The notes under the pieces: generated by a model
Database searches by the model: none
What the model was told of the DNA's origin: nothing
The model's input: the letters and a program-made list of their open reading frames with translations, nothing else
Shown: positions 35,695 to 39,120 of the stretch, piece by piece
Layout of the letters: every line of letters begins with the position of its first letter
Position numbering within the stretch: position 1 is the stretch's first letter
Made by a program: the position numbers and the translations under genes
Source of the DNA: Alphaproteobacteria bacterium
GTDB taxonomy: Bacteria; Pseudomonadota; Alphaproteobacteria; UBA8366; Aestuariispiraceae
NCBI GenBank assembly: GCA_030065235.1
Contig: JASJDC010000002.1
Coordinates: forward strand, 1,016,001-1,080,000
Reading direction: 5' to 3'
DNA length: 64,000 bases

Positions 35695-36453
35695 TCAGGC
35701 GCGCAGGGCGGGGAGGCCGACGCCGGTGCTTTCGAAACCGCCGTCGGCGGCGATGATCTGGCCTGTGACATAGCTGGCGGCGTCGGAACAGAGAAAGGTG
35801 ATGACCTGGCCGATCTCCGCCTCCGAGCCATAGCGGTTCAGGGGGATCGCGTCGTGATAGGCGGCGATGATCTCCGGCGTGTGCACCGCCATCGCCAGTT
35901 TGGTGCGCACCGGGCCTGGACAGACGCAATTGGCGCGCACGCCGAACTCGCCCAGTTCCGCCGCCTGCTGTTTGGTCAGATGGATCACGCCGGCCTTGGA
36001 TGCGCCATAGGCGACGCGTAGGGTCGAGGCGCGCAGGCCCGAGATGCTGGCGATGTTGACGATGCAGCCCTGTGTCTTCTTCAAGACTGGGATCGCCGCC
36101 TGGCTGCACAGGAAAACCCCGTCCAGATTGGTCGCCATGACGGTGCGCCATTTCTCGAAGTCGGTCCCCTCGATCGGTCCGAAATCGGCGACGCCGGCAT
36201 TGTTGATCAAGGCGTCCAGCCGGTCGGACCAGGCCAGCGTGTGCGCCATCATCGACTCGACCTGATCGGGGAAGGAAATATCGAAATGAAGCGCCAATGC
36301 GTCGGGCCCGAGATCGGCCGAGGCCTTGGTCAGCTCATCCCCGTCGCGGTCGACCAAAGCGACTCGCCAACCGTCTTCCAGAAACAGCTTCGTGGTCGCC
36401 AAGCCGATCCCGCGCGCCGCACCCGTTACGATCGCCGTCTTTTTCGCTCTCAT
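35695..36453 (-). CDS. Short-chain dehydrogenase/reductase
   Basis: This 252-residue classical SDR has the cofactor motif TGAARGIG, the NNAG motif, and catalytic residues Ser in NIASISGL and Tyr/Lys in YGASK. The Asp in VALVDRDGDE suggests NAD(H) preference. The start at ATG 36453 puts TGxxxGxG at residue 9, as in the family; the frame opens at 36483. It converges on the DMT transporter with a 10-bp gap. The substrate is unknown. Confidence 0.88.
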   Translation of the reverse strand: MRAKKTAIVTGAARGIGLATTKLFLEDGWRVALVDRDGDELTKASADLGPDALALHFDISFPDQVESMMAHTLAWSDRLDALINNAGVADFGPIEGTDFEKWRTVMATNLDGVFLCSQAAIPVLKKTQGCIVNIASISGLRASTLRVAYGASKAGVIHLTKQQAAELGEFGVRANCVCPGPVRTKLAMAVHTPEIIAAYHDAIPLNRYGSEAEIGQVITFLCSDAASYVTGQIIAADGGFESTGVGLPALRA

Positions 36454-36494
36454 CGCCCCGATCCTCCACCCTGACTTTCGCAATTCGGCTGGAT

Positions 36495-37403
36495 TTAGCC
36501 AGCCTCACCGCCGCCTGTCAGGCGAAAACTCTCCGCTAATTCCGGATCACGCAGCAGATCGGCAAGCCGCGCCGCCAAGTCAGGGCCCGGATAGGCGGGA
36601 TGGTCGCGGAACAGATCGGCGTAACGGTCCTCGAGACTGGAGAGCAGCGTTTCGGATGCTTGTGGGGCGTGGTCGCGGACCGTTTTCAACGCAGGGTCGG
36701 CGAATTTGATCTGTTTCGGATCGACCCAGCCGGCATCGATGAAGGCCTTGGTCTTCTTCTCACAGCGGCAGGGATTGGCCTCGTTGATCAGCCCGCATTT
36801 GTCATTCATGAAGGCGGTCAGGTCGGCTCTTGCCCGCTGCAGGCGCTTTCGGAACGCCGCCGCGGAAATCCCCAGAATTTCTCCGGCGACGGAAGACGGC
36901 GCCTCGAATATCTCGCCGATGATATAGGCCAGACGCTGCTTGCGGTCGAGGCAGAGCAGCATACCGAGCATGCAGCCGAGCTTCGCCTCCTCCACCAGAA
37001 CCGCACGCTCTTGTTCGAACTCGGTGGTCATTTCGAGCGGCTGCAGCGGCAACCGGTCGAGATCGTCGCCATAATCCGAGAAACTGGTAATTTGCGACTC
37101 CAGACCGCCGCGCTTGGAATCCATCATCGTGTTGGCGACGATCCGGTAGGCCCAGGTGCGAAATTGGGCGCGGCCCTCGAACTGTCCGATGCGGGTGACG
37201 ATTCGGACAAGCGCCTCTTGCGCCAGATCCGCCGCCTCGACCGGGTTCAGCGCAAAGCGCTGGGCGATATTGTAGATCCAGGATTGATGGCGGCGGACCA
37301 ATCGGTCCAGCGCCGCGCCGTCGCCCTGGGCGGCGGCGCGGGCCAGATCGACATCCCTGGCGTCGGCGCTGTCCGGCGCCGCAAGCGGATTGTTGTCGGG
37401 CAT
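36495..37403 (-). CDS. ECF-type RNA polymerase sigma factor with Cys-containing C-terminal extension
   Basis: This is a 302-residue sigma-70-family factor. Region 2 lies at residues about 28-98 (DLAQEALVRIVTRIGQF, FRTWAYRIVANTMMD) and region 4 at about 132-195 (LGISAAAFRKRLQRARADL). A C-terminal extension of about 100 residues carries Cys203, Cys212 and Cys214 (NPCRCEKKTKAF). Such Cys clusters in ECF factors can bind zinc or sense redox state; the role here is inferred. No anti-sigma gene is adjacent. Its start (ATG 37403) overlaps the stop of the secreted protein gene upstream, so the two are translated together. Confidence 0.85.
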   Translation of the reverse strand: MPDNNPLAAPDSADARDVDLARAAAQGDGAALDRLVRRHQSWIYNIAQRFALNPVEAADLAQEALVRIVTRIGQFEGRAQFRTWAYRIVANTMMDSKRGGLESQITSFSDYGDDLDRLPLQPLEMTTEFEQERAVLVEEAKLGCMLGMLLCLDRKQRLAYIIGEIFEAPSSVAGEILGISAAAFRKRLQRARADLTAFMNDKCGLINEANPCRCEKKTKAFIDAGWVDPKQIKFADPALKTVRDHAPQASETLLSSLEDRYADLFRDHPAYPGPDLAARLADLLRDPELAESFRLTGGGEAG

Positions 37404-37405
37404 GC

Positions 37406-38098
37406 TCAATTCTCAGCGTTCTGGTAAAGAGCGAAGACTTGGGTTTCCGCCAGCCCTTCGAAGAAGGTCGCGTATTCTGGCGTCGCCATCATTCTCTTGC
37501 CAGTCTCTTCCCATGCCCTGACGTCACGCCAAAGCAGTAGATCGCCGAATCCTGCGCCGCTGTCGGAGTCCGCGACAAGACGCGCCCCGCCTAGCGCGGC
37601 GCCGGAACTAAAGAGCTCGTCATGCACTTCCTTCTGGATCAGCGCATGCGCCGCTGGGTCGCGTGCCGTGTACAAGGCCAGCTCAACCATCGGCGCCGAG
37701 CCGATGGACTGGTTTAAGTTTTCGGCGTCCGCTGCCGCCCAATAGTGTGCGAAAAAATCCACCTTGGCGATCGCGCTGACAAAGGGCTTGAAACCGGCGT
37801 CTTTTCCGATCGCCGCGGCGGCTGCCTTGGCCTGTTCCGACGACTCCCAGGCCAGGATGTCAACTCTGGCTTCGGCTTCACCTGTCAGCGGGCGCCACCA
37901 GAGCAAGCCGTCGAATCGTTCCGCAGCGCGTTTCATCGCGCGCTCGCGCTCAGCCTCAAATGAGGCGGAGTCTGCGACCGAATAGACTGCGATCTCAAGA
38001 TAGGTTGCATCAGAGGCGGTCGCGAAACTCAGCGGCGCGGCTGCCAGCGCAGCGGCGAGCAAGGTTCCGGTGCTTTTCGTTTGGGGTTTTGCGGGCAT
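37406..38098 (-). CDS. Exported protein with two dimeric alpha/beta-barrel-like domains
   Basis: This is a 230-residue protein with a signal peptide (LLAAALAAAPLSFATA, cleavage near ASDA). It is followed by two similar segments, TYLEIAVYSVADSASFEAER...DILAWESSEQAK and MVELALYTARDPAAHALIQ...DLLLWRDVRAWEE. Each looks like an antibiotic-biosynthesis-monooxygenase/NIPSNAP-type ferredoxin-like unit. ATG 38098 is preceded by GGAAAGGAAG. It is coupled to the ECF sigma gene, so it may be the sensor or the product of that regulatory unit. I do not recognise a named family. Confidence 0.75.
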   Translation of the reverse strand: MPAKPQTKSTGTLLAAALAAAPLSFATASDATYLEIAVYSVADSASFEAERERAMKRAAERFDGLLWWRPLTGEAEARVDILAWESSEQAKAAAAAIGKDAGFKPFVSAIAKVDFFAHYWAAADAENLNQSIGSAPMVELALYTARDPAAHALIQKEVHDELFSSGAALGGARLVADSDSGAGFGDLLLWRDVRAWEETGKRMMATPEYATFFEGLAETQVFALYQNAEN

Positions 38099-38167
38099 CG
38101 AGTCTTCCTTTCCAATCGTCACGCCGAAATTGGCGTTCATGGGGTTAGACGGAAGAATTCGGGCTGT

Positions 38168-38194
38168 GTGACCGCGGTGGTGCAAAAAAGTTTC
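38168..38194 (-). promoter_or_regulatory. Candidate ECF-type promoter upstream of the exported protein-sigma operon
   Basis: On the minus strand GAAACTTTTTT (from 38194) is followed 16 bases after GAAAC by GGTCAC (38173-38168), a spacing and -35 form like many ECF promoters. It would make the operon autoregulated by its own sigma factor. This is a pattern match by eye only. Confidence 0.3.
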
Positions 38195-38328: not shown

Positions 38329-39120
38329 ATGGAAGACACGGAGATCGACCAAGCGGCTGCCTTGTTAGCGCGGGCGCGCTTAGATGCGGCGGCGCTTGAG
38401 CACCTTCCAAGCGAAGCCACGCCGCCCGATCTCAATGACGCCTACGCGATCCAGTCTCGGCTGCACGCAATCTTGTCAGAGGCTGGTCACGGTCCCTTCT
38501 CCGGCCACAAGATCGGCTGCACGACCAAGGTCATGCAGGACTACATGAAGATCCCCTCTCCCTGCGCCGGCATGATCCCGGCGCCGCTGATCTTCGAGGG
38601 CGAGACCCGGCTGCCTCGGTCGCGTTTCTGCAATCCCGGCGTCGAGTGTGAGATCGCGGTTCGGCTGAAGGCGGACATGCCGGCGCGGCCGGGCGGCTAT
38701 GATCGGGCGTCCGCGGCGGCCTGTATCGGCGCGGCGATGGCCAGCATCGAATTGGTGGATCAGCGCTGGACGGACTTCCGCGCGCTGCCGACTCCGCCTT
38801 TAGTCGCCGACGATTTCTTCAATGCAGGCTGCGTGCATGGGCCGGAGACGGCGGTTGATCCGTTCGCCTTGGATCGGGTGCGCGGCCGGATGCGGATCAA
38901 CGGCGCCGATTTGGGTGAGGGGGTCGGGGCGGATATTCTCGGCCACCCGCTGGACGCTTTGGCCTGGCTCGCTGATCTGCGCGCGGCGCAGGGCGCGCCG
39001 CTCAGAGCCGATGCGCTGGTCACTCTAGGCAGCATCCTGCAGACCGAATGGATCGACGCAGGCGATCATATCGAGATAGAGATGGATGGGCTCGGCGCTG
39101 CAGAGCTGACTCTCAGCTAA
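38329..39120 (+). CDS. 2-keto-4-pentenoate hydratase / fumarylacetoacetate hydrolase-family protein
   Basis: This 263-residue protein is of the FAH superfamily, hydratase branch (MhpD/DmpH-like). GHKIGCTTKVMQDYM, the metal-binding GVECEIAVRL and the terminal TLGSILQTEWIDAGDHIEIEMDGLG are visible. It would hydrate a 2-oxo-alkenoate or act in a similar meta-cleavage step; the substrate is not predictable. GAGGAGAGAG precedes ATG 38329. It is divergent from the ECF operon and followed after 49 bp by the pirin gene. Confidence 0.85.
   Translation: MEDTEIDQAAALLARARLDAAALEHLPSEATPPDLNDAYAIQSRLHAILSEAGHGPFSGHKIGCTTKVMQDYMKIPSPCAGMIPAPLIFEGETRLPRSRFCNPGVECEIAVRLKADMPARPGGYDRASAAACIGAAMASIELVDQRWTDFRALPTPPLVADDFFNAGCVHGPETAVDPFALDRVRGRMRINGADLGEGVGADILGHPLDALAWLADLRAAQGAPLRADALVTLGSILQTEWIDAGDHIEIEMDGLGAAELTLS

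Follow-up and report, generated by a model that had tools for sequence, protein, structure and literature searches.

An extracytoplasmic function sigma factor with five invariant cysteines and a putative on-board sensor in an alphaproteobacterial operon

How might an extracytoplasmic function (ECF) sigma factor be held in check when no anti-sigma factor is encoded beside it? The question is raised by a small operon in the 4.18 Mb genome (G000) of an Alphaproteobacteria bacterium of the Aestuariispiraceae (assembly GCA_030065235.1). The operon is located on contig JASJDC010000002.1 (labelled C2), within a stretch of 64,000 nucleotides (positions 1,016,001 to 1,080,000), which is the window to which the coordinates below refer. 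A preliminary description of the locus had proposed that the sigma factor, translated with a secreted protein containing two ABM/NIPSNAP-like repeats, carries a cysteine-bearing C-terminal extension that may replace the anti-sigma factor. The analysis presented here favours, with modest confidence, an on-board cysteine sensor combined with autoregulation of a single operon. The features on which this view is based are as follows.

38167..38173, minus strand: -35 element GGTCACA of a predicted promoter recognised by the sigma factor itself; a TGTCACA block is conserved among relatives
38145..38151, minus strand: -10 element CGTCTAA, a conserved (C/T)GTCNAA block; genome site C2:1054145-1054172
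37406..38098, minus strand: partner protein, 230 residues, double ABM-type (dimeric α/β barrel) by alignment, AlphaFold2 model and Foldseek/VIA matches
36495..37403, minus strand: ECF sigma factor, 302 residues; Pfam Sigma70_r2, model pLDDT 88.4
36951..36974, minus strand: C144-x6-C151 at the end of the first sigma4 helix, invariant in 55/55 aligned rows
36498..36797, minus strand: C-terminal extension of the sigma factor, residues 203-302, with C203, C212 and C214
36762..36797, minus strand: C203-x8-C212-x-C214 (CGLINEANPCRC), invariant in 55/55 aligned rows and outside the scan pattern

Five cysteines and the extent of the family

The sigma factor matches Sigma70_r2 in Pfam (E 1.3e-16), while its Sigma70_r4_2 match, at 22.1 bits, falls below the cut-off of 25.7; among the 25 of 89 NCBIfam matches listed, the general ECF family TIGR02937 alone scored above its cut-off. 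As in group 4 ECF factors the protein has sigma2 and sigma4 only, without sigma3, judged by Pfam, TIGR02937 and superposition on SigW and CnrH. In the predicted structure the last sigma4 helix comprises residues 181-202, and the extension that follows is modelled as helices only. The roughly 100 additional C-terminal residues and the CR-C cysteines of the preliminary description are thus both borne out.

The protein contains exactly five cysteines, at positions 144, 151, 203, 212 and 214, and cysteines occupy five of the 17 invariant columns in an alignment of 55 sigma proteins. Of the 85 sequences, the window included, 84 keep the spacing C-x6-C-x51-C-x8-C-x-C exactly; the sole exception, from Enterococcus, has x6 in place of x8. 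The family set consists of the best 80 of 135 confirmed loci from a species-genome scan based on a five-row alignment, and as C144 and C151 lie inside the peptide pattern of the scan, only C203, C212 and C214 count as independent evidence for these 80 loci. All five cysteines are also present in each of the 14 members that came from other searches (one of 14 Leptospira records, Runella, one of five Enterococcus records, G297, and loci L098, L099, L100, L104 and L114-L119). The scan pattern is matched by Leptospira, Runella and G297 and unmatched by Enterococcus, and none of the nine checked among the ten L loci matches it. These ten loci were the further matches at E<=1e-40 in whole-genome profile searches, all with the five-cysteine arrangement. 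None of the nine weaker matches kept as loci (L101, L102, L103 and L105-L110) has the motif, and the family therefore has a clear edge, as seen with search profiles that were themselves built from five-cysteine proteins. Variation of the cysteines among homologues, which would have told against the preliminary description, was not what the 55 invariant rows and the nearly uniform spacing revealed.

By the labels of the sigma tree the family spans at least 14 phyla, to which an Enterococcus plasmid adds Bacillota, and the closest relative of the window protein among the tree rows is from SAR324 (62% identity). The family is sparse around the source organism: with the source genome counted in each case, it occurs in 2 of 43 genomes of the order, 3 of 385 sampled genomes of the class (E<=1e-20) and 7 of 398 of the phylum (E<=1e-40). 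Plasmids of Leptospira carry it (L008 and 13 further plasmid records), and the one such record that was read encodes a single-barrel ABM-like protein upstream of the sigma factor. At L107 a SAR324 genome (G427) encodes an ECF sigma factor of another kind, whose tail reads C-x8-C-x2-C (CSLINKDGICHQC), possibly a related group with cysteine tails.

The predicted promoter and its likeness to that of ECF41

The window promoter reads GGTCACA-N15-CGTCTAA (38173-38145). When spaced word pairs were counted, with no promoter model assumed beforehand, 22 of the 66 sigma-upstream regions contained TCACA and TGTC at a spacing of 15, and 7 of the 18 ABM-upstream regions contained GTCAC and TCTA at a spacing of 18; in shuffled controls (three sets per region type) the top counts were 3-5. 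A position weight matrix (PWM) built from 37 sites was applied at a threshold of >=16 bits from 1.8 kb before to 2.5 kb after the sigma start, and identified 81 sites on the gene strand versus 2 on the opposite strand. An upstream site was present in 61 of the 78 loci having over 300 nt upstream, while 19 of 80 loci displayed a site between the sigma gene and the next gene. The strict pattern finds nothing in G429, where the PWM finds a GTAACA variant before the Moritella operon. Autoregulation of the operon, as suggested in the preliminary description, is well supported by these sequence patterns, although through a motif other than the one proposed there. The pair GAAAC-N16-GGTCAC is indeed present in the sequence but joins the wrong halves, as GGTCACA represents the -35 and CGTCTAA the -10 element. 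It was rejected as a promoter because in relatives the GTCAC block is coupled to a (C/T)GTC block further downstream; among pairs that open with a GA-rich word, the best one (GAAAA, then TCAC) was found in only 4 of 18 regions.

A genome-wide search, which the preliminary description had recommended, was made with the corrected motif. In the source genome GTCACAN{15,16}YGTCNAA matched twice, and only the site before the operon lies directly before a gene. The other (C18:39627, minus strand) reads into an open reading frame (ORF) of the plus strand at its 3' end, and about 850 nt follow before a minus-strand ORF of comparable size begins. A wider regulon in this genome was thus rejected, the second site of the pattern searched not being directly before a gene. 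The other KGTCACAN{15}CGTC site, at C12:90727, is located at the end of a gene that reads as kinase-like, on the opposite strand.

Some relatives show variations on this arrangement. L023, L038, L044, L046, L050, L070, L088 and other mostly Planctomycete loci contain two copies of the motif, one before the sigma gene and one before the next gene, and the second copy marks that gene (SDR, a short-chain dehydrogenase, or SnoaL) as a separate predicted target. In the fork of the sigma tree that contains rubrerythrin genes, the -10 element, where the motif was found before the sigma gene (e.g. L073, L080, L082), reads TGTATAA and not TGTCTAA. A Ferruginibacter genome has a second five-cysteine sigma factor (L099); at L129/L142 (G423:C4:19000-22500) the promoter motif precedes what by eye are an SRPBCC-like gene and a membrane protein gene on the same strand, running towards the sigma gene.

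The motif resembles that of ECF41. Wecke et al. (PMC3426412) report TGTCACA-n16-CGTC in front of ECF41 genes as well as COE genes, with the COE gene as the sole target detected and with both positive and negative effects of the ECF41 extension on activity. In Sinorhizobium a transcription start site lies 9 nt after an ECF41-like motif (PMC3616915) and a single ECF41 target was found (PMC6180224). The window sequence GGTCACA-N15-CGTC is one base off in the -35 element, and its spacer is within the published 16 ± 1. With ECF41 (Ecf41Bli, Ecf41Rsp, SigJ) the window system has in common the promoter type, a small enzyme gene beside the sigma gene as (here predicted) target, the lack of an anti-sigma factor and a C-terminal extension of about 100 residues, regulatory in ECF41 (PMC3426412). 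By analogy, the circuit here looks the same. The sigma factors themselves, however, are distinct. The ECF41 linker motif WLPEP is found in 0 of 85 family sequences, Pfam detects no SnoaL domain in the window sigma factor at E<=1, where ECF41 has a SnoaL-like extension, and SigJ is a weak sequence match (E 2.2e-4). The promoter differs from that of ECF29, another group with an extension and no anti-sigma factor (-35 GGGAAC, -10 GCATCCAA; PMC6180224), the family motif being TGTCACA and (C/T)GTCNAA.

An ECF41 protein was considered as the factor reading the promoter in the source genome. TIGR02957, which we take to be the ECF41 family (WLPEP was seen in two of three matches fetched), matched 4 of 10 genomes, none above the curated cut-off. 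At E<=1e-30 there was no match in the source genome, on which ground the candidate was rejected, nor in 5 of the other 9 genomes; the motif is therefore independent of an ECF41 protein. Three of the four matches were fetched as a control, with a WLPEP ORF at L148 and L149 and none seen at L150, and in two other genomes of the set the WLPEP-bearing ECF41 is a separate gene lacking the five-cysteine motif. These results bear on a broader alternative, in which chance placed the barrel gene beside the sigma gene and the promoter serves a different sigma factor. In its favour, either protein is confined to 2 of 43 genomes of the order (the source among them). Both of these genomes, however, contain the two genes next to each other, the motif is found before sigma operons of many phyla, and the source genome has no ECF41-type protein at the threshold given above. 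This alternative is thus highly improbable.

The C-terminal extension as a candidate built-in anti-sigma factor

The preliminary description had reported no anti-sigma gene nearby, and indeed none of six ORFs from the operon and its surroundings is identified as an anti-sigma factor by Pfam. The model of the full-length sigma factor superposes on ECF factors captured with their anti-sigma partners, namely SigW with RsiW (Z 17.4, 1.9 Å over 152 residues) and CnrH with CnrY (Z 16.4, 2.1 Å over 154 residues), and does not superpose on SigH bound to RNA polymerase (about 27 Å). The compact model fits an extension that acts as a built-in anti-sigma factor. Among 17 solved structures matched by the profile at E<=1e-8 none covers the extension, as all end by profile position 196.

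Precedent for such a role comes from other ECF factors. The C-terminal cysteines of CorE, CorE2 and OrbS are described as on-board metal sensors (PMC8999054, PMC9023288, PMC3107203), and C-terminal extensions are regulatory in the studied cases of ECF41, CorE and OrbS (PMC3426412, PMC8999054, PMC9023288). CorE and CorE2 (former ECF44, now near ECF238) are like the window sigma factor in having cysteines both in and before the extension and no anti-sigma factor. The details differ, however: CorE has a CxC in the sigma2-sigma4 linker, C-x4-C-x2-C-x-C in a tail of 38 residues and an AAC-type -35 element, where the window protein has C-x6-C and C-x8-C-x-C, a tail of 100 residues and TGTCACA. Neither the linker CxC (residues 86-145 of each row) nor the CorE tail motif was found in any of the 85 sequences. 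In the new ECF238 group, too, most members deviate from the CorE features (PMC8999054). OrbS, the iron-sensing factor of Burkholderia cenocepacia, is unlike the window protein in its short C-x2-C-x3-C-x5-C tail, its siderophore genes and its control by Fur. Cysteine-rich extensions are further reported for ECF287 and ECF288 (PMC8999054). In the literature, covered by titles and abstract openings and mostly outside subscription papers, no description of the five-cysteine family was found; the family may already be a numbered ECF group.

It could be argued that the cysteines are structural only, for example as a zinc site that folds the extension, and that what sets activity is the expression level alone, by way of autoregulation, or else some other regulator. 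A structural metal site would be just as likely to have invariant cysteines, and autoregulation by itself can make a switch. On the other hand, the extensions of ECF41, CorE and OrbS are regulatory, and partners such as rubrerythrin suggest a redox theme. A purely structural role is thus unlikely, albeit one that retains some weight. The view that the extension may replace the anti-sigma factor, as the preliminary description had suggested, is supported by the analogy to these factors, the conservation of five cysteines across phyla, the lack of an anti-sigma factor among the neighbours checked and the compact model.

Partner proteins and the proposed switch

The two repeats of the partner protein share an E...D-x3-W signature, with E35, D80 and W84 in the first and E139, D186 and W190 in the second invariant in the alignment. 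The AlphaFold2 model (pLDDT 87.9) has the dimeric α/β barrel (ferredoxin-like) fold of the ABM superfamily and matches 2pgc (Z 17.5, 3.9 Å, 192 residues), consistent with the two ABM/NIPSNAP-like repeats reported earlier. Other fold matches include 3gn6, sulfur oxygenase reductases, PenE (9kdp) and the anthrone oxidase-like 5f9p. Although double barrels of this superfamily (2pgc, PenE, 5f9p and the sulfur oxygenase reductases) resemble the partner over their whole length (Z 15.9-17.5), sequence identity is 8-14%, and the likeness is one of predicted fold. The window partner has no Pfam match, and Pfam ABM (PF03992) matches 2 of 12 partner homologues at E<=0.01. The window partner likely carries a Sec signal peptide, judged by eye and from hydropathy, in line with the earlier description of an exported protein, but this does not extend to all of its counterparts. 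By eye and crude hydropathy an export or lipidation signal is suggested for 8 of 18 ABM-type partners, and none is evident in the other 10 (one scripted lipobox flag, L077, was overruled by eye, and L026, cut by a contig end, was excluded), and export is therefore not a conserved trait.

The same gene pair is present in Aestuariispira insulae. With a hidden Markov model built from the window protein and its Aestuariispira counterpart, 16 of 80 loci were seen to have an ABM-type protein upstream of the sigma factor on the same strand, and the other 64 showed none. The model missed the Runella upstream protein (P0003), labelled ABM by eye, and caught that of Leptospira (P0001); a tblastn search of plasmids for the partner gave no match at E<=1e-3. 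In the sigma tree, a quick tree with several long branches, the ABM-labelled rows need 6 changes, where shuffling gives 17.4 on average and in none of 500 trials so few, and 10 of the 11 rows in the fork with the window are ABM, the window included (support 94, not starred). The gene pair is thus kept in part of the family, contrary to the outcome that would have discredited the preliminary description, although its occurrence is sparse.

Elsewhere in the family the partners are different. Among 42 downstream neighbours chosen of 60 there are 13 SDRs, 10 SnoaL_2 proteins and 8 rubrerythrins, and among 20 upstream neighbours chosen of 46, SDR, DUF2461, α/β hydrolase, DUF1398, Rieske and SnoaL_2 proteins occur twice each, the selection having excluded 15 ABM rows and ORFs judged spurious by eye. 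By our reading, the eight loci with a rubrerythrin-like gene directly downstream (L073, L076, L079-L082, L087 and L089) fall in one 12-row fork of spirochaetes and delta-type lineages, and single SDR-, flavodoxin-, glyoxalase- and CMD-type partners were found outside it. The redox or detoxification types among relatives (SDR, SnoaL, rubrerythrin, flavodoxin-like reductase, glyoxalase and CMD) suggest a redox theme for the family. At two Planctomycete loci (L053, L056) genes assigned by reading, DUF1398-like before the sigma gene and methyladenine DNA glycosylase after it, with two Pfam matches for each kind, hint at a link to alkylation or electrophiles.

These data bear on whether the partner is output or sensor, the two roles that the preliminary description had offered. 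The partner leans to output, because partners vary while the promoter mostly stays, because 19 of 80 loci have a promoter copy between the sigma gene and the next gene, and because over half of the ABM-type partners show no evident export signal. The opposite possibility is that the barrel binds a ligand and signals to the sigma factor, as a sensor or the equivalent of an anti-sigma factor. The YCII family consists of dimeric α/β barrels too. ECF42 factors, like the window protein, lack an anti-sigma factor and have a neighbour of the YCII family, for which a regulatory role has been suggested (PMC8999054), although ECF42 has a TPR extension of about 200 residues and the window sigma factor no TPR match in Pfam. 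The same-strand upstream position of the barrel gene in 16 of 80 relatives, and in nearly all rows of the window's fork, also favours a signalling role. In contrast, the window partner is probably exported and the sigma factor cytoplasmic, 64 of 80 relatives lack a detected ABM-type upstream neighbour, the partners differ widely where promoter and cysteines stay, and the ECF41 neighbour YdfG has no effect on promoter activation (PMC3426412). A signalling partner is thus improbable, and the best reading is a switch that resembles ECF41 in being autoregulated and confined to a single operon, with an on-board thiol or metal sensor and the partner as output.

Several points weigh against this reading. 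The anti-sigma search covered near neighbours only. Free SigG1 (3.0 Å over 159 residues) and SigJ (3.7 Å over 132), which bear extensions, also fit the sigma model, while the sigmaE-RseA, AlgU-MucA and SigK complexes align to sigma2 or about 82-87 residues only; compactness, seen here in a model of the full-length protein, could be the AlphaFold2 default for any ECF factor. No upstream PWM site reaches 16 bits in 19 of 80 loci, of which 2 have less than 300 nt upstream and several (L081, L083, L089) have ample DNA. The PWM derives from sites of the same loci, making the counts partly circular (the shuffle test and strand bias less so), and related loci are not independent trials. In ten genomes the pattern matched 22 times versus 19 for a reversed control, and the promoter case therefore rests on placement, not on counts; by their coordinates, 9 of the 22 matches sit just before operons of this sigma family. 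Finally, the partner may act as sensor besides output.

The sigma gene lies directly downstream of the partner gene on the same strand, as described earlier, but 2 nt separate the partner TGA from the sigma ATG (37403), and the overlap reported previously arises only from an alternative TTG start (37409). For the partner, ATG 38098, with a Shine-Dalgarno-like GGAAAGGAAG at 38113-38104, is likely the true start, since the -10 element would lie only 4 nt from the upstream candidate, ATG 38140. Downstream of the sigma factor is one further gene, absent from the preliminary description:

35695..36453, minus strand: SDR, possible third operon gene; Pfam adh_short_C2, E 2.4e-66 for the longer ORF 35695-36483

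The sigma stop and the SDR start are 41 nt apart on the same strand, and GGAGG precedes the SDR ATG. Between 35600 and 38400 the minus strand showed no terminator-like site. A short inverted repeat at 36487-36504 (GGCTGG-CTAAAT-CCAGCC), which lacks a T run, has the sigma stop codon in its loop. The window SDR is 30% identical to one Planctomycete partner SDR, a level common to many SDR pairs, and the SDR was rejected as a conserved third gene on account of this low identity and of the different next gene in the closest relatives of the window. On the other side, an FAA_hydrolase-type gene (38329-39120) is divergent from the operon, the upstream region being common to both.

In the mechanism we propose, the two cysteines where the first sigma4 helix ends and the three just past the last helix together probably bind a metal or form a thiol redox switch. 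This site would tie the extension to the sigma core, such that sigma2 and sigma4 are held closed and binding to RNA polymerase is blocked. What relaxes the closed form would be a reactive cytoplasmic signal, most likely an oxidant, an electrophile or a change in metal. The freed sigma factor is predicted, from conservation, to read the promoter of its own operon, of the TGTCACA-N15/16-(C/T)GTCNAA type, giving more sigma factor and the probably exported double ABM-type barrel, perhaps with the SDR. The output protein would then probably neutralise the signal compound.

At the level of the family, we suggest tentatively, and with less than even confidence, that the five-cysteine ECF factors form an undescribed or unstudied family that reached at least 14 phyla by descent or transfer, with a promoter of ECF41 type and single-operon detoxification modules in which the output (ABM barrels, SDRs, SnoaL proteins or rubrerythrins) is swapped freely. 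If this is correct, promoter code and circuit remain constant while the effector changes, with a sensor domain unlike that of ECF41. One promoter code is apparently common to two sigma families that are distant in sequence and differ in their sensor domains. A sigma factor with a sensor of its own is a switch made from a single gene and a useful building block. The conserved cysteines and the single predicted target make sensing and output directly testable, and the recurring partners give an initial indication of what double ABM-barrel proteins of unassigned function may do.

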